A stretch of DNA of 28,087 bases from a virus. The position numbers were made by a program, and so were the translations under genes. How positions within the stretch are numbered: position 1 is the stretch's first letter; the number at the start of each line of letters is the position of its first letter. Below the pieces are notes generated by a model. The model ran no database searches, was not told the origin of the DNA, and worked only from the letters and a program-made list of their open reading frames with translations. The DNA lies in IMG/VR virus record IMGVR_UViG_3300032245_001022, positions 1 through 28,087 of that record. One strand, given 5' to 3'. Positions 2,261-25,145 of this stretch are shown in pieces.

Positions 2261-5200
2261 ATGGCAACATCAAACAAAGTTTTTGTCTCGCCGGGTGTAT
2301 ACACATCAGAAAGAGACTTATCATTTGTTTCACAAAGTGTCGGAGTTACTACTTTAGGTATAGTTGGGGAAACCTTAAAAGGACCAGCGTTTGAACCTAT
2401 ATTCATTTCAAGCTACGGAGAATTTGAAACTTACTTCGGTGGTACACTTCCTGAAAAATTTGTGAACACACAAATCCCAAAATATGAAGCAGCATACATT
2501 GCTAAATCATATTTACAACAATCAAATCAACTTTTTGTAACAAGAGTTTTAGGTTTATCAGGTTATGACGCAGGTCCTTCTTGGTCTATCACAACTGTTG
2601 CGAATGTTGATTGTAATACAATTGCAATTACAGGGGGAACTTCATTTAGTTTTAACTTTACAGGTTCTACCGCTTCAACAACTTCAATACAGTTTACTTC
2701 GGCGGTCCCATCAGTAATTTCAGGTAATACATATTACAATAATAATTACATTAAATTTAATGGAGGTAATTCTTCAATATTGTCAGATTTAAAAAATCAA
2801 TTATTTACGATATTATTGAGTAATTCACTATCTGCAACATCGGCTTATTATTTTGGACCTGTTTCAGGTACTCAAGTTAATGCGAATGTTGTTGCTGGTT
2901 TAACTAACGCAACAAATGTATTTTCAGTTGATAGTATTAGTTCTTCAACTATAGATTATTGTTCAGGAACTAATGACGCTTGGTTTTACGCTAATTTTGT
3001 ACCACCAACAACTGGTGAACAATATAACGGTAATTCATTCTATACTAATGTTAGTTCTTTATCAGGTACTGCATTTGGAACTTCAGGAAATTTTTCAGGA
3101 ACTGTTTCAGGTTATTATTACGGATTTTCAGGTTTAACTTATTCAGGTTATAATGATTTAGTAATAGCAACTTTACGTTCAAGAGGTGTTACTAATTATT
3201 CATCAAGTCAACATGGACCAAGTTACCAAGTTTCAGGAGTTAATGATGTACAAATTATTTGTACAGGTTCTTATTCTGGTGTATCACAAAATCCATTTAA
3301 AACTTTTGCAATATCAGGAAATACTATTGATTCTGCAAACTTTACATTTGAAACATCATTTACACCGTCAAACGCTAATTTTATAACTAAAGTATTTGGT
3401 GTTGAAAATTTTGCGAAAGATAGAACTGAAGTACCTTTGTTTGTTGAAGAAAGATATTCAACATTACTTTCTTATGGGTATAACAAAGGATACATTAGAG
3501 GTTTAAATTGTAATTTATTAGCGTTAGAAGAAGCTAGAAATAATGATACTAATTCTATCGGATATTATCTTGAAAGATATCAAACCCCTGAATCACCATG
3601 GGTTGTATCTGAACTTAGAGGTAATATTGTATATCGATTATTTAAAGCGTTAACAATATCTGATGGTAATGATGCAAATACTGAAATAAAAATATCAGTT
3701 GCAAATATATCATTTAATAACAATACGTTTGATTTAATCATTAGAGATTTCTTCGATACTGATTCTAACCCTGTAGTTTTGGAAAAATTCACTAATTGTA
3801 GTATGGACCCAAATGAAAACAACTATGTTGCTAAAAAGGTAGGAACTTCAGATGGTGAATATGCAATTAAATCAAAATACATAATGGTAGAGGTTAATAC
3901 TGAGGCTCCAGTAGATGCGTTACCTTGTGGATTTGAAGGGTTTATTACTCGTAAATATTCAGGAGTGAAATCACCATTCCAAATTTATAAAACAAAGTAT
4001 GACTATCCAGGTGAAGTTATTTATAACCCACCATTTGGAACTAAATCAGGTGTTGATGATGCGGTAAGAAGTTCTGGTGATAATGTAAGAAAAACATATT
4101 TAGGTATTTCTTCAGCGGTAGCCTTTTCATCGGATTCACCAGGTTATGACCCTGATTTCTTCCAATATAAAGGAATGCCAAATCCAACAACTACAACTTG
4201 TACTGAAGCGTCACATGTTAGTTGGGGAATACAAACAAAAGGTTTCCACATGGATAGCGGAGCAACTTCTGTAACAATTGCAAATCTTTACACTAATAGT
4301 GGAACAACTGCATTTAGTGTTGGGGCAGGTTCATTTAGTTCTGAACCAACATCACAAACTAATCCATATTATTTCTTATATTCACGTAAATTTACTTTCT
4401 TAGTTCAAGGAGGTTTTGACGGATGGGATATCTATAGAGAATATAGAACAAATGCTGATAGTTTCCGTTTAGGAAGTACAGGTTACAAACAAGGAGCGTT
4501 GGCTGGTTGTGTACCATATGTAGACGCAACAGGATGGGGAGCGTTTAAACAAATCACTGTTGGTGATAACACAGTTGATTATGCAAACACTGACTATTAC
4601 GCATACCTATTAGGTGTTCAATCATTTGCAAATCCTGAAGTAACAAACATTAATGTTTTAGTTACACCTGGTGTTGACTACGTTAACAATAGTGCGTTAG
4701 TTGAATCAACAATTAATATTATTGAAAACGACAGAGCGGATTCTATCTATATCTGTACAACACCTGACTTTGACTTGTTACAATCATCAACTTCTATGGA
4801 TAATTTAATCTACGTACAAGAAGCTGTTGATAATTTAGAATCGACAGGTATTGATTCTAACTATACCGCAACTTACTACCCATGGGTTCTTACTCGTGAC
4901 ACAGTAAACAATACACAAATTTATATTCCATCAACTGCGGAAGTTACAAGAAACTTAGCATTGACTGATAATATAGCTTTCCCATGGTTCGCAACTGCGG
5001 GTTACACAAGAGGTATTGTAAATGCGGTTAGAGCAAGAAAAAGATTAACTCAAGAAGATAGAGATACTCTTTATAAGGGAAGAATTAACCCAATCGCAAC
5101 TTTCAACGATGTTGGAACTGTTATATGGGGTAATAAAACACTTCAAATTAGAGAATCTGCTCTTGACAGAATTAACGTAAGAAGATTGTTATTACAAGCT

Positions 5201-5476
5201 CGTAAATTGATTTCAGCAGTAGCCGTAAGATTATTGTTTGAACAAAACGATAACTTAGTAAGACAACAGTTCTTAGATTCAGTTAATCCAATCTTAGATG
5301 CAATTCGTAGGGACAGAGGTTTGTATGACTTCCGTGTTGTTGTTCAAAACACACCTGAAGATTTAGATGCTAACCAAATGGTAGGTAAGATTTATATCAA
5401 ACCAACTAAAGCTCTTGAATTCATTGACATTGAGTTCTTAATCACTCCAACAGGAGCATCGTTTGAAAATATCTAA
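2261..5476 (+). CDS. 18: Contractile tail sheath protein (gp18)
   Basis: A 1071-residue sheath protein. The N terminus (FVSPGVYTSERDLSFV, then a VGVTTLGIVGET strand and a GPAFEPIFISS turn) and the C terminus (IRRDRGLYDFRVVVQNTPED, then MVGKIYIKPTKALEFIDIEF) are textbook contractile-sheath sequences; these ends form the conserved core beta sheet that links neighbouring subunits. T4 gp18 is 659 residues. The extra length sits mainly at residues about 110-370, a Ser/Thr/Gly/Asn/Tyr-rich stretch with repeated SG and FSG/TYSG units, and in a second variable zone around 640-760. Both are probably surface domains outside the conserved core. A terminator follows directly. Sheath contracts around the gp19 tube encoded two genes downstream. 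Confidence 0.95.
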   Translation: MATSNKVFVSPGVYTSERDLSFVSQSVGVTTLGIVGETLKGPAFEPIFISSYGEFETYFGGTLPEKFVNTQIPKYEAAYIAKSYLQQSNQLFVTRVLGLSGYDAGPSWSITTVANVDCNTIAITGGTSFSFNFTGSTASTTSIQFTSAVPSVISGNTYYNNNYIKFNGGNSSILSDLKNQLFTILLSNSLSATSAYYFGPVSGTQVNANVVAGLTNATNVFSVDSISSSTIDYCSGTNDAWFYANFVPPTTGEQYNGNSFYTNVSSLSGTAFGTSGNFSGTVSGYYYGFSGLTYSGYNDLVIATLRSRGVTNYSSSQHGPSYQVSGVNDVQIICTGSYSGVSQNPFKTFAISGNTIDSANFTFETSFTPSNANFITKVFGVENFAKDRTEVPLFVEERYSTLLSYGYNKGYIRGLNCNLLALEEARNNDTNSIGYYLERYQTPESPWVVSELRGNIVYRLFKALTISDGNDANTEIKISVANISFNNNTFDLIIRDFFDTDSNPVVLEKFTNCSMDPNENNYVAKKVGTSDGEYAIKSKYIMVEVNTEAPVDALPCGFEGFITRKYSGVKSPFQIYKTKYDYPGEVIYNPPFGTKSGVDDAVRSSGDNVRKTYLGISSAVAFSSDSPGYDPDFFQYKGMPNPTTTTCTEASHVSWGIQTKGFHMDSGATSVTIANLYTNSGTTAFSVGAGSFSSEPTSQTNPYYFLYSRKFTFLVQGGFDGWDIYREYRTNADSFRLGSTGYKQGALAGCVPYVDATGWGAFKQITVGDNTVDYANTDYYAYLLGVQSFANPEVTNINVLVTPGVDYVNNSALVESTINIIENDRADSIYICTTPDFDLLQSSTSMDNLIYVQEAVDNLESTGIDSNYTATYYPWVLTRDTVNNTQIYIPSTAEVTRNLALTDNIAFPWFATAGYTRGIVNAVRARKRLTQEDRDTLYKGRINPIATFNDVGTVIWGNKTLQIRESALDRINVRRLLLQARKLISAVAVRLLFEQNDNLVRQQFLDSVNPILDAIRRDRGLYDFRVVVQNTPEDLDANQMVGKIYIKPTKALEFIDIEFLITPTGASFENI

Positions 5477-5543: not shown

Positions 5544-6359
5544 ATGAAAATATTTTTAGTAGAAGAATTTGATGAAGAAATCACACCCGATTTAAAATAT
5601 TATGCATTTGATTGGGATGATAATATTCTTACAATGCCGACACAAATAATACTTCGTACAGAAGATAATGAAGAAGTTGGTATGTCAACAGAAGACTTTG
5701 CGGAATATCGTGTTAAAGTTGGTGTTGAACCTTTTGTATATAAGAAAAAAACTATTGTAGGGTTTGCTGACGACCCGTTTAGGAACTTTGGGACTAAAGG
5801 TGATAAAAGATTCATCATTGACTCGATGATGGCAAAACCAGGTCCTGCATGGGATGATTTTGAAGAAGCGATTAATGGTGGTTCAATTTTTTCAATAGTT
5901 ACCGCAAGGGGACATTCACCATTGGCTTTACGTAGAGCAATTGAAAATATGATTGAAACTAATTTTAAAGGAATATCTAAAAAAGAATTGGTTAAAAATC
6001 TAAGAAAATTTAGAAAGTTTGCTGGTGAAGAAGATATGAGTGATAAAGAACTTATAGAAGCTTATATGGATATGAATAAGTATTATCCTGTAACATTTGG
6101 TTCCGGGTCAGCACAAAGTCCTGAGGTTGGTAAAGTTGCGGCTTTAAAAGAATTTCAACAATATGTAAAATATTTAGCTGGTAGATTAAATAAACCAGTA
6201 ATGTTTAAAGATGATATTAGTAATAGATTCATACCTAAAATAGGTTTTTCAGATGATGATTTAAGAAATCTGGAAAAAGTTAAAGATGAATTATCTAAAG
6301 ACCCAGAAAATATTATTCAAACAATATCAACACATGGAGGTGAAAAGAAATTATACTAA
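5544..6359 (+). CDS. HAD-superfamily phosphatase-like protein
   Basis: A 271-residue protein. Motif I is FDWDDN (nucleophile D23 and general acid/base D25), motif II is IVTARGH with T120, a candidate motif III lysine is at about 197 (EVGKVAALK), and motif IV is IGFSDDD (acids at 237-239). Together these form the Mg-dependent HAD active site. A cap-like insert of about 90 residues separates motifs I and II, and a helical KELVKNLRKF region lies between II and III. The substrate cannot be read from sequence; nucleotide or polynucleotide 3'-phosphate, or a protein phosphate, are possibilities. The unusual point is the location between sheath and tube genes, where T4 has nothing. The only ATG ahead of motif I is 5544. 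Confidence 0.8.
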   Translation: MKIFLVEEFDEEITPDLKYYAFDWDDNILTMPTQIILRTEDNEEVGMSTEDFAEYRVKVGVEPFVYKKKTIVGFADDPFRNFGTKGDKRFIIDSMMAKPGPAWDDFEEAINGGSIFSIVTARGHSPLALRRAIENMIETNFKGISKKELVKNLRKFRKFAGEEDMSDKELIEAYMDMNKYYPVTFGSGSAQSPEVGKVAALKEFQQYVKYLAGRLNKPVMFKDDISNRFIPKIGFSDDDLRNLEKVKDELSKDPENIIQTISTHGGEKKLY

Positions 6360-6475: not shown

Positions 6476-6964
6476 ATGGCTGATTTACTGATGAAAATGC
6501 CTTTTCCATATGAACCCAAAAGAAAAAACAGGTTCATATTACGATTCCCTTCAGAACTAGGTATTAACGAATGGTTTGTAGAAACAACAAATAGACCTAA
6601 AATGACAATTAAAAGTACTGAAATTCCTTTTTTAAATACAAAAAGATATGTTGCAGGAATTTATGAATGGGGAACTATTGGTGTTAAATTACGTGACCCA
6701 ATCGGACCTTCAGCTGCTCAAGCAATGATGGAATGGGTTCGTTTACATGCTGAATCTGTAACAGGTCGTATGGGATACGCTGCGGGATATAAGAAAGACA
6801 TTGAACTTGAAATGTTAGACCCAACAGGTGTTGTTATTGAAAAGTGGTCTTTAATCCAATGTTTCTTAACTGACGTTGATTTTGGTTCACTTGGTTATTC
6901 TGATGATGCATTAGCGGATATCACATTAACTCTTCGTCCTGACTATTGTGTATTACTTTACTAA
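6476..6964 (+). CDS. 19: Tail tube protein (gp19)
   Basis: A 162-residue protein, essentially the length of T4 gp19 (163). It opens with an FPYEPKRKNRFILRFP strand, then an IPFLNTKRYVAG strand and WGTIGVKLRDPIGPSA, the conserved tube signature in which the DP-x-GPS turn precedes the helix AQAMMEWVRLH. It ends with LTLRPDYCVLLY. The protein forms stacked hexameric rings inside the sheath. It is flanked by its own TATTTAT element and terminator, so it is probably transcribed as a strong single-gene unit. Confidence 0.95.
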   Translation: MADLLMKMPFPYEPKRKNRFILRFPSELGINEWFVETTNRPKMTIKSTEIPFLNTKRYVAGIYEWGTIGVKLRDPIGPSAAQAMMEWVRLHAESVTGRMGYAAGYKKDIELEMLDPTGVVIEKWSLIQCFLTDVDFGSLGYSDDALADITLTLRPDYCVLLY

Positions 6965-7059: not shown

Positions 7060-7812
7060 ATGGAAGAACAAAATGTTAATCAGATGAATTTAAATTTACC
7101 TCATGACGTAATCCAATTACCGAGTCAAGGTAGATTTTATAAGAATAAAAAAAAATCGGTTAAAGTTGGTTTTTTAACTGCTGCTGATGAAAATATTTTG
7201 GCAAACGCATCTAATATGTCTGGTGACCAAATAATCCATAATTTAGTTAGAGCTAAGGTATACGAACCTGACTTAAAGATTGAAGAAATGTTAGATGGTG
7301 ATATTGAAGCGATATTGATTTTTTTAAGAAATACATCATTTGGTACTGAATATACATTTACTTTATTAGACCCACAGACTGAAAAAACATTTGAATCAAC
7401 TATTACGTTAGATGAAGTAGATTTTGTTAAACCTGAAGTTGAACCTGATGAAAATGGTTTATTTACAACAGTTCTTCCAAAATCGGGTAAAACAGTTAAA
7501 TTAAAATTGTTAACATTCGGAGATAAAAAAGAATTAAATGACAGAGAAAGTTCATATCCTAAAAATATGGTAGCTCCAAGAGTTACATGGAGATTGGCAA
7601 AACAAATAGTTTCTATTGACGGTAACGATGATAAAACTGAAATAGTTAAATTTATCGATAAGATGCCAATTATGGACTCAAAATATATCACGCAATTTTT
7701 AAATAAAAATCAACCGTCTATTAATTTAGAGAGAGAATTTAACGCCCCATCAGGAAAAAAGGTCAAATCACGGATTGCCTTTGGGGTGGAGTTTTTTCGC
7801 CCTTTCTTCTGA
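7060..7812 (+). CDS. 26: Baseplate/tail assembly chaperone, T4 gp26-like (unshifted product)
   Basis: A 250-residue protein. The N-terminal VIQLPSQGRFY, the LTAADENILANAS helix start, GDIEAILIFLRNTSFG and the C-terminal FGVEFFRPFF are typical of the T4 gp26 baseplate-hub family, which behaves like the G-type tail chaperone of other phages. The 0-frame product stops at TGA 7810-7812, four codons past a T6 run. A second open segment in the +1 frame continues to 7954 and looks like the partner domain (separate entry). The tape measure gene follows, the usual place for a G/GT-type chaperone pair. No TATTTAT element precedes this gene; the leader is A-rich (ATAAACAAAAACGAATTT). Confidence 0.8.
   Translation: MEEQNVNQMNLNLPHDVIQLPSQGRFYKNKKKSVKVGFLTAADENILANASNMSGDQIIHNLVRAKVYEPDLKIEEMLDGDIEAILIFLRNTSFGTEYTFTLLDPQTEKTFESTITLDEVDFVKPEVEPDENGLFTTVLPKSGKTVKLKLLTFGDKKELNDRESSYPKNMVAPRVTWRLAKQIVSIDGNDDKTEIVKFIDKMPIMDSKYITQFLNKNQPSINLEREFNAPSGKKVKSRIAFGVEFFRPFF
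7792..7798 (+). other. Candidate +1 ribosomal frameshift site TTT TTT C
   Basis: In the chaperone frame the codons are GAG TTT TTT CGC CCT. A peptidyl Phe-tRNA on the second TTT can move one base forward onto TTC, which its GAA anticodon reads better, while the next 0-frame codon CGC should be slow in this AT-rich genome. Reading then continues GCC CTT TCT TCT GAT. A weak 5-pair stem (GGGTG 7784-7788 with CGCCC 7798-7802) places the T run in its loop. A homopolymer sequencing error (true run T5) would give the same fused frame and cannot be excluded from sequence alone. Confidence 0.6.
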
Positions 7813-7954
7813 TTATATAAAAAATTTATTGGACCAATATATTTTATTGAGTCGGTTTATGCATATGTCATATTCCGATTTTTTAATTATTCCTATATCA
7901 CATCGTAGATATTTGGTGGACACTATTATTGAGATGAATACGCCAAAAACTTAA
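7799..7954 (+). CDS. gp51/GT-like chaperone extension in the +1 frame
   Basis: This is a 51-codon segment plus stop, with no credible start of its own near its beginning, lying one base ahead of the gp26-like frame. It reads ALSSDYIKNLLDQYILLSRF, then MHMSYSDFLIIPISHRRYLV and DTIIEMNTPKT. The pattern of two helices, a short MSYxDxxxxP turn and a HRRYLVDxII helix is what tail-chaperone C-terminal partners (gpT of lambda; gp51-type in T4-like phages) look like. Fused to gp26 through the +1 site it gives about 297 residues. An internal ATG at 7859 could give only a short piece. As in other tailed phages, the extended chaperone would bind the tape measure protein encoded at once downstream. Confidence 0.65.
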   Translation, partial: ALSSDYIKNLLDQYILLSRFMHMSYSDFLIIPISHRRYLVDTIIEMNTPKT

Positions 7955-7980: not shown

Positions 7981-9972
7981 ATGATGATGTTTGTTGATGA
8001 ACCAGTAGATAATTCTTCACTTGGTATTGGTAAGGACCTTACTACTTTCATTGGAAATATGGGTAACGCCCTTAAAGGGGCCGAGTCTCTTGGAAATTCT
8101 TTTTTAAATACATTTAAAGCAATACAAGATGTTGATGCTGCAATGTCCAAAGTTGTTACTAAATTAGGTACAGGTGCTCAAAATTCTGAACAAATTAAAG
8201 AATCTTTTGGTAAGGCTTATTCTAACATCGCGTTATTTGGTGGTACATTTGCTGAGTTACAAACTGCTCAAGAAGAGTTTTTAGCGGTAAACCAAAGAAA
8301 TGTAATACTTAGTTCTGAAAATTTAACTGATTTAGTTGCGGTTACTAAAGTGACTGGTGTGGCAGCTAAAGACTTATTAACTGGATTTGAAAACGCTGGA
8401 TTTTCTATGGACCATATTAGTGATACTATGACTAGTGTTACTAAAATTTCTAGGGATATGGGAGTTAATGCTCAAGTAGTATCTAAAAGTGTTGTTGATA
8501 ATTTAGATAAACTAAATAAGTTTGGATTCCCAAATGGTGTTGAAGGTTTGGCTAAAATGGCAGCTAAAGCCGCAAGTTTAAGAATGGATATGGCAACCAC
8601 TTTTAAAATTGCTGATGACATATTCAATAGAGGCCCTGAAGCTGCAATTGAAATATCTTCTGCATTACAAAGATTAGGGGCTGCGTCAGGCTCGTTACTT
8701 GACCCAATTAAATTAATGGATTTAGCTCAAAATAACGTTCCTGAGTTAAACAATCAACTTATTGAATTAAGTAAACAATATACAGTTTTTAACGAAAAAA
8801 CTGGACAGTTTGAAATTATGCCTGGTGCTAGACGACAAATAAATGAAGTTGAAAAGGCTTTAGGTATGAGTTCTGGTGAATTATCAAAAATGTCGTTAGA
8901 AGCAGCTAAATTAGATAAAAAATTATCTGATATCGATTTTAGTCAGTTAGGGTTTAATGTTACTGATGAAGAAAAAACTATGATTGCTAACATGTCAGAG
9001 TTTAATAAAGATAAGGGTGGATTTACCGTTAAGTTAAAAAATGAAAAAACAGGTGAATTTGAAGAAAAATTATTAAGTCAATTAGAACCTGGTGAATTAG
9101 CAAAATTACAAGAAGGACAATTAAGTGAAACTGCGGAAATGAAAGATATTGCTTACCAACAACTTGGTCTGCAAGGACAGATGGTGGCACAACAAATTGC
9201 TATGAATAATTCAGTATCAATGTTAATTGCTACAACTGATATGGGTACTAAAATTTTAGAAAGTGCTCAAGAAAGACAAACAAAAAATTTAGGGTTAGAA
9301 ACGTCAGGTAACCAAAAAAATACATTAGATTTACTTAACGCTAATAATAAAGAAACTGTTGCGGCCATGAACACGATGGGTGCAAATGTTGAAAAACTTT
9401 TTGATAGTTTAAAAGGTGATAGTGTAGAAGATATACCTAAAATGATTGATGCGTTTAAAACTTTTGCCGGAAGTTTTGCAAGTGTTACGGGTGATGTTGC
9501 TAAAAATCAATTTCAAAATCTAAGTTTTGGAGATGTAATGACAACTGCTGTGACTAAATTGGCAACATCTGCAGAAGGGCTTGAAACAATTATAACTAAC
9601 ATAAAAACTTTAATAGGTGTTAAAGACTCAATTATAACGCCCAATGGTATTGTCCAACCTTTAGAACAAGACACTATTATCACCATGACACAAGGTGAAA
9701 AATTCAAAGAAAATTTATTAGGTAAAGGTAACACTCAGCCAAATCAAACGGCAATGATTGACAAAGAAATGATGATGTCTACACCACAATCAAAAAACAA
9801 TACCCCAAACAATTCAAAAGTTGAAATTGCTTTTACACATAAAGTTGATGGTCCAGTTACTGCTGATGTTGCAAACGCATTTTCTAAATCTTTAAGGGAT
9901 AATCCTACATTACAAAAACAAATTATTGACACTATAAATCAAGCGAACACAAATTTTGGTTTAACTGCATAA
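7981..9972 (+). CDS. Tail tape measure protein (T4 gp29 position)
   Basis: A 663-residue, largely helical protein beginning MMMFVDEPVDNSSLG; starts at 7984 or 7987 are equally possible. Residues about 30-240 carry tape-measure-type helices with repeated small-residue patterns (VTKVTGVAAKDLLTGFENAG, MAAKAASLRMDMATTF, ISSALQRLGAASGSLLDP). A charged middle follows (SEFNKDKGGFTVKLKNEKTG), and the C terminus is glutamine- and asparagine-rich. Length class, helicity and the position right after the chaperone gene identify it as the protein that sets tail length and fills the tube; direct similarity to T4 gp29 is not obvious to me. Downstream lie the tube-cap and hub-like proteins it would meet in the baseplate. 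Confidence 0.8.
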   Translation: MMMFVDEPVDNSSLGIGKDLTTFIGNMGNALKGAESLGNSFLNTFKAIQDVDAAMSKVVTKLGTGAQNSEQIKESFGKAYSNIALFGGTFAELQTAQEEFLAVNQRNVILSSENLTDLVAVTKVTGVAAKDLLTGFENAGFSMDHISDTMTSVTKISRDMGVNAQVVSKSVVDNLDKLNKFGFPNGVEGLAKMAAKAASLRMDMATTFKIADDIFNRGPEAAIEISSALQRLGAASGSLLDPIKLMDLAQNNVPELNNQLIELSKQYTVFNEKTGQFEIMPGARRQINEVEKALGMSSGELSKMSLEAAKLDKKLSDIDFSQLGFNVTDEEKTMIANMSEFNKDKGGFTVKLKNEKTGEFEEKLLSQLEPGELAKLQEGQLSETAEMKDIAYQQLGLQGQMVAQQIAMNNSVSMLIATTDMGTKILESAQERQTKNLGLETSGNQKNTLDLLNANNKETVAAMNTMGANVEKLFDSLKGDSVEDIPKMIDAFKTFAGSFASVTGDVAKNQFQNLSFGDVMTTAVTKLATSAEGLETIITNIKTLIGVKDSIITPNGIVQPLEQDTIITMTQGEKFKENLLGKGNTQPNQTAMIDKEMMMSTPQSKNNTPNNSKVEIAFTHKVDGPVTADVANAFSKSLRDNPTLQKQIIDTINQANTNFGLTA

Positions 9973-24319: not shown

Positions 24320-24472
24320 ATGGGTAGAAAAAAAATTATTGAAAAATTTAAAAAGGTTAAAATCGGGGTATCAATTGACCCCGATTTACCTGAATATTTT
24401 AAAGAAAAATCAATTAATCTATCGTCATTAGTTAATAAATTATTAAGAAAACATATTGAAGATGGAAACTAA
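24320..24472 (+). CDS. Small ribbon-helix-helix-like protein (50 residues)
   Basis: Reads MGRKKIIEKFKKVKIGVSID, then PDLPEYFKEKSINLSSLVNK and LLRKHIEDGN. A basic arm is followed by a strand (VKIGVSI), then helix, turn (INLS) and helix, the ribbon-helix-helix form of CopG/Arc-type DNA binders. Its last 11 bases overlap the start of the HNH endonuclease gene. A plausible role is local regulation of the endonuclease or RNase H gene, but that is inference. It resembles in layout the minus-strand protein at 1991-2140, though not closely in sequence. Confidence 0.75.
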   Translation: MGRKKIIEKFKKVKIGVSIDPDLPEYFKEKSINLSSLVNKLLRKHIEDGN

Positions 24473-25145
24473 AGTTTGTTATAAATGTAAGGAAGAAAAG
24501 GATGTTTGTGAATTTGGTAATCGTTCAAATACTAAAGACGGTAAATCTTCACAATGTAAAAAATGTCACAATCTAAGGTCTGCGGATTACCAAAAACGAA
24601 ATTATAAAGAATGTTTGGAAAGACAAAGACAGTGGAGAAGTAAAAATCCTGAATGGGTGAGTAATGCTAACAAAAAAAACTATGATAATAATAGGGAATA
24701 TAATTTAAATAGAGTTAAAGATTGGTATGAAAATAACCCAAACAAAAGAAAAGAATACCGAGAAAATTACAAACCAAGGAAACACGAAAAAAGAAAAGAA
24801 AGAAGAGAATCTGACCCTATTTTTTCATTAATTAATAATGTCAGAAGTCGTCTTTACAAATACCTAACCAAGTTGGATATCACTAAAAAAAACAAAACAT
24901 TTGACATTGTGGGGTGTAATCCATTACAATTAAAAGAACATTTAGAAAAACAATTTACTAACGGTATGTGTTGGGAAAATAGAAATGAATGGCATATTGA
25001 CCACATAATTCCATTGTCGTCAGCAAAAACAGAAGATGAATTATATAAACTATGTCATTATACTAATTTGCAACCGCTTTGGGCGATTGATAATATTAAA
25101 AAAGGTAAAAAAATTTTGTCAAACAATTCAAACACTAATTCGTGA
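24462..25145 (+). CDS. HNH endonuclease, free-standing homing type
   Basis: A 227-residue protein starting METKVCYKCKEEKDVCEF. Paired CxxC motifs at 6/9 and 32/35 form a zinc ribbon of the kind common in phage HNH enzymes. A long, very basic central region (KKNYDNNREYNLNRVKDW, RKEYRENYKPRKHEKRKERR) would contact DNA. The HNH site near the C terminus reads EWHIDHIIPLSSAKTEDEL (H178, D180, H181), then YTNLQPLWAIDNIKKGKK, giving the Asn and last basic positions. The ATG at 24462 is preferred over a TTG two codons earlier. It overlaps the gene before it by 11 bases and the RNase H gene by 4, fitting insertion of a mobile gene between uvsX and rnh. Confidence 0.9.
   Translation: METKVCYKCKEEKDVCEFGNRSNTKDGKSSQCKKCHNLRSADYQKRNYKECLERQRQWRSKNPEWVSNANKKNYDNNREYNLNRVKDWYENNPNKRKEYRENYKPRKHEKRKERRESDPIFSLINNVRSRLYKYLTKLDITKKNKTFDIVGCNPLQLKEHLEKQFTNGMCWENRNEWHIDHIIPLSSAKTEDELYKLCHYTNLQPLWAIDNIKKGKKILSNNSNTNS

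Follow-up and report, generated by a model that had tools for sequence, protein, structure and literature searches.

The window considered here is the whole 28,087-base stretch of a virus record, has a GC content of 30%, and comes from an uncultured virus with T4-like tail genes. Profile searches of the window recognized T4-like genes for a tail sheath, a tail tube, a gp32-like protein, a 5'-3' exonuclease and a DnaB-like helicase, together with a weak match for a RecA-like protein; no tRNA genes were found in the 28,087 bases. Related MAG contigs are mostly Flavobacteria, at only 26-30% identity. The tail sheath protein (window 2261-5476) is unusually large, at 1071 amino acids, with the recognized sheath domains confined to its last third. 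A 271-residue ORF at 5544-6359, with the tail sheath on one side and the tail tube on the other, has no match in Pfam or PHROG, and its start, YYAFDWDDNIL, bears a by-eye likeness to the HAD-type phosphatase motif. Further downstream, an HNH-type endonuclease-like ORF (24456-25145; PF01844 at 1.3e-3, below the cut-off) is flanked by the RecA-like gene and the 5'-3' exonuclease gene, and is possibly a homing endonuclease.

The gene of interest, as all features described below, lies on the + strand. Its frame-0 ORF (7060-7812) encodes a 250-residue, T4 gp26-like putative tail assembly chaperone, here termed TAC-N. The gp19-like tail tube gene (6476-6964) adjoins it upstream and is assigned by PHROG-4542 (tail tube, 3.5e-28), with PF06841 at 7e-5, below the cut-off. 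Downstream lies a gene of 663 codons (7981-9972) that matches no family in Pfam or PHROG; its position corresponds to that of the annotated tape measure genes of phages phiM12 and LIS04, and on that ground alone it is taken as the probable tape measure gene. The first-pass annotation had placed the chaperone gene just before the tape measure; the tail tube on the upstream side is clear, and the identity of the downstream neighbor is positional.

The frame-0 reading of TAC-N ends with GAG TTT TTT CGC CCT TTC TTC TGA, the stop codon being at 7810-7812. A shift of +1 at the TTT of 7795-7797, which is itself preceded by a TTT codon (7792-7794), leads into a frame that is open from 7799 to 7951 and closed by TAA at 7952-7954. 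This tail of 51 codons plus TAA (7799-7954) contains MSYSDFLIIP and HRRYLVDTIIEMN, and would form the C-terminal domain of a 297-residue frameshift product, TAC-NC (P0001; 7060-7954), as translated across the +1 shift. The predicted trans-frame junction peptide is IAFGVEFFALSSDYIK for a +1 shift and IAFGVEFFFALSSDYIK for a -2 shift, and the unshifted TAC-N ends in IAFGVEFFRPFF. On re-reading of the sequence, the earlier description of the GAG TTT TTT CGC end, the 51-codon +1 frame and their coordinates proved correct.

Family membership of the frame-0 product is well marked. TAC-N matches PF12322, "T4 bacteriophage base plate protein", at 3.4e-11 (43.7 bits, cut-off 24.5) and PHROG-150, "baseplate hub", at 1.2e-15, and all 35 of the 35 fused relatives match PF12322. 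Both gp26 and gp51 of T4 belong to the same family (5e-63 and 4e-52, respectively) and are related to each other by BLASTP at 2e-6. T4 gp51 covers nearly the whole PHROG-150 profile, its C-terminal part included, and the unshifted product is therefore gp26-like and the shifted product gp51-like: gp26 consists of the N-terminal part only and gp51 of N plus C, matching the two products of the window. A fusion of gp26 with gp51, as had been proposed, does not describe the locus, as the two T4 proteins are paralogues and gp51 alone spans the profile; it is better put that one gene yields a gp26-like and a gp51-like product. The +1 tail and the C-terminus of T4 gp51 share, by eye, a similar P...R motif. 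In the profile comparison, A4 gave no significant match to T4 gp51 or gp26, and the homology of the tail to the gp51 C-terminus was not significant.

The two-frame arrangement is not peculiar to this record. The same layout and the same site are present in 23 of 23 independent viral contigs at 73-97% identity, and the junction carries TTT_CGN in all 224 IMG/VR loci examined; this agreement rules out a sequencing or assembly error. Within the window the site pattern occurs once, against none expected. For closer analysis, 72 loci were used that had not been chosen by any DNA pattern and had been dereplicated at more than about 5% protein difference. Their +1 tails run for 48-61 codons without a stop. 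In-frame stops in the tail region were absent from the +1 frame in all of 71 loci, and were present in 71 of 71 and 69 of 71 loci in the other two frames. The median dN/dS of the tail is 0.52-0.54 in the +1 frame and 1.1-1.2 in the other two; the ratios are rough because dS is near 1, close to saturation, while the contrast between frames is clear. Purifying selection thus acts on the tail only when it is read in +1, and since the tail is stop-free in all loci with low dN/dS in that frame alone, chance is excluded as well. The two-frame observation is confirmed as real.

A conserved tail could also be a small gp51-like gene in its own right, initiated at a start codon of its own through coupling or re-initiation. 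The annotation of Mel-JY01 lists the tail as a distinct gene, records of phiM12 and cyanophages name it "gp51" or "baseplate hub assembly catalyst", and a genuine arrangement of this type, with TAATG, occurs in LR756511. The tails of the 72 loci have no conserved start codon, eight of them lacking any ATG and the rest having it at differing positions. Independent initiation would moreover leave unexplained the fixed UUU and the rare CGG or CGC at the junction, as well as the onset of +1 conservation precisely at the slip codon, and is very improbable here.

Translation through a +1 programmed frameshift would account for these features. The shift site, UUU_CGC (7795-7800), comprises a P-site UUU (7795-7797) that can re-pair on UUC (7796-7798) and a rare arginine codon, CGC, in the A site. 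All 72 of the 72 dereplicated loci have TTT as slip codon, preceded by TTT in 71 and TTC in one, and the A-site codon is CGN in every case: CGG in 44, CGC in 13, CGT in 13 and CGA in 2. Together CGG and CGC occupy the A site in 57 of 72 loci and account for only 3 of 616 arginine codons elsewhere in the same genes (AGA 495, CGT 47, AGG 43, CGA 28, CGG 2, CGC 1). Arginine usage in the genes of the window itself is similarly skewed (AGA 175, CGT 38, AGG 28, CGA 14, CGC 2, CGG 1). The rarest arginine codons are thus strongly favored exactly where +1 frameshifting predicts them. By phage codon usage, then, the A-site codon would be a slow one in the window's clade, the abundance of the tRNA being judged from phage codons only. 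Synonymous variation is also depressed at the TTT codons of the shift site. Re-pairing of the P-site tRNA one base 3' is possible throughout, UUU being followed by C in 72 of 72 loci, which supports the slip of tRNA-Phe from UUU to UUC that the first-pass annotation had put forward. A contribution of the frame-0 stop codon to the signal was considered and rejected; the stop lies four or more codons past the A site, and because this distance varies among relatives it does not appear to be a signal in itself.

More distant members of the family were gathered by scanning with a remote relative, a huge phage, as anchor; this gave 79 usable loci with tails read by eye. The homologous tail is in the +1 frame in all 79, and the P-site tRNA could again re-pair one base 3', on UUU_U or CUU_U, in 79 of 79. 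Their junctions are mostly TTT_TGG, with TTT_TAC in seven, TTC TTT TGG in three and TTT CTT TGG in two. Two further explanations for the junction can be judged against these variants. RNA polymerase slippage on the T6 run would yield mRNAs of varied length and make the shift a transcriptional one, and a homopolymer of T6-T7 is indeed found at the site in most members. The run is short, however, and members with TTCTTTC (L103, L107), TTCTTTTGG or TTTCTTTGG keep both frames; slippage would also give no role to a fixed CGN with a preference for rare codons, and it seems hardly credible as the source of the shift. A translational shift of -2 would reach the same frame as +1. Shifts of -2 have been reported for other tail genes, and tRNA-Phe could re-pair on T6 after such a slip too. 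The junctions TTC TTT CGG and TTT CTT TGG permit re-pairing after a +1 but not after a -2 slip, and only a +1 slip requires that the following codon begin strictly with C or U; a -2 event is very unlikely. The TTC TTT TGG and TTT CTT TGG types argue against both, and show that T6 is not needed. The T6 run had earlier been singled out, and an alignment of relatives had been proposed for the T6-C site and the two frames; the two frames and TTT_CGN are kept, and the T6 run is not constant, L103 and L107 reading TTC TTT CGG. The key element is UUU followed by C or U, plus a rare A-site codon in the window's clade. With site conservation and selection on the +1 tail both in its favor, the +1 programmed frameshift in a gp26-type chaperone suggested by the first-pass annotation very likely produces both TAC-N (250 residues) and a minor TAC-NC (297 residues).

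The frame of the tail is not the same across the family. It is also +1 in Mel-JY01, SP-15 and LIS04, and in MAG contigs labeled Flavobacteriaceae, Winogradskyella and Flavobacteriales (Bacteroidota). It is -1, behind poly-T, in Sinorhizobium phage phiM12, XacN1 and cyanophages, which often are annotated with gp26 and gp51. Loci L367-L370, L006 and L009 represent gp26 of cyanophage, Pelagibacter phage (Kyanoviridae), Sinorhizobium phage and XacN1 with the homologous or corresponding -1 tail; many records among these phages annotate a separate "gp51" gene. In LR756511 the tail is a separate, overlapping gene, and in T4 gp26 and gp51 are divergently transcribed.

A second conserved feature, absent from the earlier reading, lies just before the shift site. 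RNAalifold applied to all 72 sequences found, as the main conserved structure, a stem of the form GCCCCR/YGGGGY, whose 5' arm in the window is CGCCCCA (7743-7749; family-wide core 7744-7749) and whose 3' arm is TGGGGTG (7782-7788; core 7782-7787). The stem core is 4-7 bp and the loop 32 nt. The 3' arm is about 8-13 nt upstream of the P-site codon, the GGGG ending 8 nt upstream, and the stem ends 6-7 nt before that codon and 4 nt before the TTT TTT pair. No stimulatory structure was found by RNAalifold downstream of the shift site in the 72 sequences. Coding constraint marks the same positions: codon 242, in the 3' arm, is GGG in 69 of 72 loci, compared with 82 of 893 glycine codons (9%) elsewhere in these genes, and codon 229, in the 5' arm, is GCC or ACC in 69 of 72, although these make up only some 10% of the codons used for the amino acids concerned. 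Synonymous variation relative to expectation falls to 0.11 at codon 229, 0.12 and 0.15 at codons 232-233, and 0.18 at codon 242.

Pairing is kept where the arms differ. In L064 and L079 both arms are changed, to GCACC/GGUGU, and in L046 to GUCC/GGAC; the fifth stem pair is G.U, G-C or A-U in 71 of 72 loci. A covariation test used 30 sequences selected so that no exception was lost. Of the stem cells, 98.3% were paired, shuffles giving 92.1 ± 1.0% and slid controls no more than 63%, and the covariation score was 0.335 against 0.192 ± 0.025 in shuffles (0 of 500), with changes on both sides at three pairs. Among 158 distinct regions, CCCC is present in 137 of 137 with GGGG and in 2 of 19 without it. 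The compensatory changes come from few lineages (L046, and L064 with L079, plus outer pairs), the 5' arm of L064 can alternatively pair locally with GGTGC, and single-sequence folding z-scores are modest, from -1.0 to -2.5. A pairing of GGGG with the downstream CCT across the shift site was rejected: L051, L096, L097, L104 and L112 have GTT there, yet keep GGGG.

The GGGG could instead serve as an internal Shine-Dalgarno sequence and not as a hairpin arm, a reading that concerns the stimulator only and leaves the +1 shift in place. Internal Shine-Dalgarno sequences stimulate the +1 shift in prfB (PMC6321510), and pairing of GGGGUG to the 16S tail is possible with a single G.U. The 8 nt to the P-site codon differ from the E-site-juxtaposed position in prfB, and a prfB-like element is unlikely because of this unsuitable spacing. 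The distant CCCC of the 5' arm is equally constrained and, in the counts given above, accompanies GGGG, and L046 and L064/L079 alter both arms. Bacteroidota, which are among the possible hosts, make little use of Shine-Dalgarno sequences. Overall, an internal Shine-Dalgarno role is unlikely, if less so than the rivals to the +1 shift itself, and a stimulatory role of the upstream hairpin in the +1 shift is somewhat more likely than not.

Two observations extend beyond the stem. In a sister clade (L242, L244, L248-L251, L253-L254, L257-L260, L264, L275, L277, L279-L281 and L283) TTT_CGT is kept and the conserved stem is absent; the A-site codon is always CGT, and the loci read TTT TTT CGT CCT TTC, then TAC or TTC, then GG. 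This clade should have another stimulator or none. In the window's hairpin loop, the element TCNGGARAA (7750-7758, codons 231-233) is under strong synonymous constraint, with GGA in 70 of 72 loci. No pairing partner for it was found, and the element may contact rRNA or form part of a more extensive RNA structure.

The fold of the fused protein was predicted with AlphaFold2 for a relative, L039, with a mean pLDDT of 84.8. The +1 tail is predicted as three helices, at pLDDT mostly 74-91, joined through less certain linker residues (241-250). In Foldseek searches of viral models, 56 matches reached E <= 0.001; they include T4-like proteins of the baseplate hub and of hub assembly, and several matches to the hub assembly proteins cover nearly the full length. 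Nothing significant was found for this fold in the PDB, and searches of solved structures by sequence returned nothing relevant; the HK97 protein 2ob9 is the sole tail-chaperone entry among the matches listed, and a weak one (probability 0.33, E 1.7, TM 0.44 by target). A chaperone role for TAC-N and TAC-NC is thus suggested by family membership and position, not by a solved fold.

Taken together, a T4-like myovirus would obtain both of its tail assembly chaperones from one gene. Most ribosomes would terminate at the TGA of 7810 to give the gp26-like TAC-N. We infer that some ribosomes, a minority, pause while tRNA-Phe occupies the second UUU (7795-7797) and the rare CGC stands in the A site, awaiting the scarce tRNA for CGC or CGG, and that during this pause tRNA-Phe may slip one base forward onto UUC, so that translation would continue in the +1 frame to give the gp51-like TAC-NC. 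In the window's clade the hairpin, located near the mRNA exit, probably refolds on leaving the ribosome and would favor the forward slip. In yeast, engineered hairpins that lie upstream and refold stimulate +1 frameshifting at CUU_CGG (PMC3639245), and upstream hairpins do so at CUUUGA on 70S ribosomes (PMC6321510); the related -1 attenuation by such hairpins weakens as the spacing is widened from 2 nt through 5 nt and further (PMC3639245). With the stem 4 nt before TTT TTT and 7 nt before the P-site codon, spacing in the phage family comes close to the limit of the spacings tried. By analogy with the lambda model (PMC5009743), the role of TAC-N would be to coat the tape measure protein, and that of TAC-NC to bring in subunits of the tail tube.

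Several known systems offer comparison. In lambda gpG/gpGT and other tail assembly chaperones, one gene before the tape measure gene likewise gives a short major and a long minor product; lambda shifts -1, whereas the window's gene would shift +1 and its protein is of the PF12322 family of T4 gp26/gp51. T4 has two divergently transcribed paralogous genes where the window has a predicted frameshift, and a 2016 review names T4 as an exception to G-T frameshifting (PMC5009743). In cyanophages and Sinorhizobium phage the homologous tail is likewise out of frame at the end of gp26 behind poly-T, but in -1, at U_UUU_UUC or U_UUU_UUU. For T4-like phages, the title of a 2022 paper puts forward a mechanism that is not frameshifting. 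In PMC12846349, poly-T -1 signals in T4-like tail assembly chaperones are credited to Vladimirov et al. 2022 (doi 10.1016/j.virol.2021.11.003). The motif UUU_CGN of the window's clade is identical to that of influenza A PA-X, where the site is UUU_CGU with an A-site codon seldom used in the host (excerpts of PMC8310308), and of amalgaviruses, with UUU_CGN (excerpts of PMC9559581). These viruses are unrelated and use eukaryotic ribosomes, and those excerpts describe no upstream hairpin; the likeness is convergent. The engineered hairpins (6BPGC and others) are, as here, short, GC-rich and a few nucleotides upstream, and act on +1 sites that include a CGG A site (PMC3639245) and on 70S ribosomes (PMC6321510). 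They were designed or derive from a -1 attenuator, whereas the hairpin of the window is natural and conserved, with a putative stimulatory role.

Frameshifting in tail assembly chaperones is known; its combination of UUU_CGN with a hairpin in T4-like phages looks new. No description of this combination was found in the literature, the novelty being provisional. It is about an even proposition that a large uncultured T4-like group uses a natural, conserved, hairpin-driven +1 shift, through refolding at the mRNA exit together with UUU_CGN. T4 has long been stated to be the exception to conserved tail-chaperone frameshifting (PMC5009743), and the T4-like family of the window does appear to shift; if true, frameshifting operates in a T4-like group where it was thought absent or -1. 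The PF12322 family then has four layouts, namely a +1 shift, a -1 shift, an adjacent separate gene, and a duplication as in T4, and offers a clear example of how recoding can arise, reverse its direction or give way to another arrangement. A mechanism demonstrated until now in engineered constructs would, with this hairpin, gain a natural system for its study, and the shift motif allows the two frames of TAC-NC to be joined correctly when hundreds of viral genomes are annotated.
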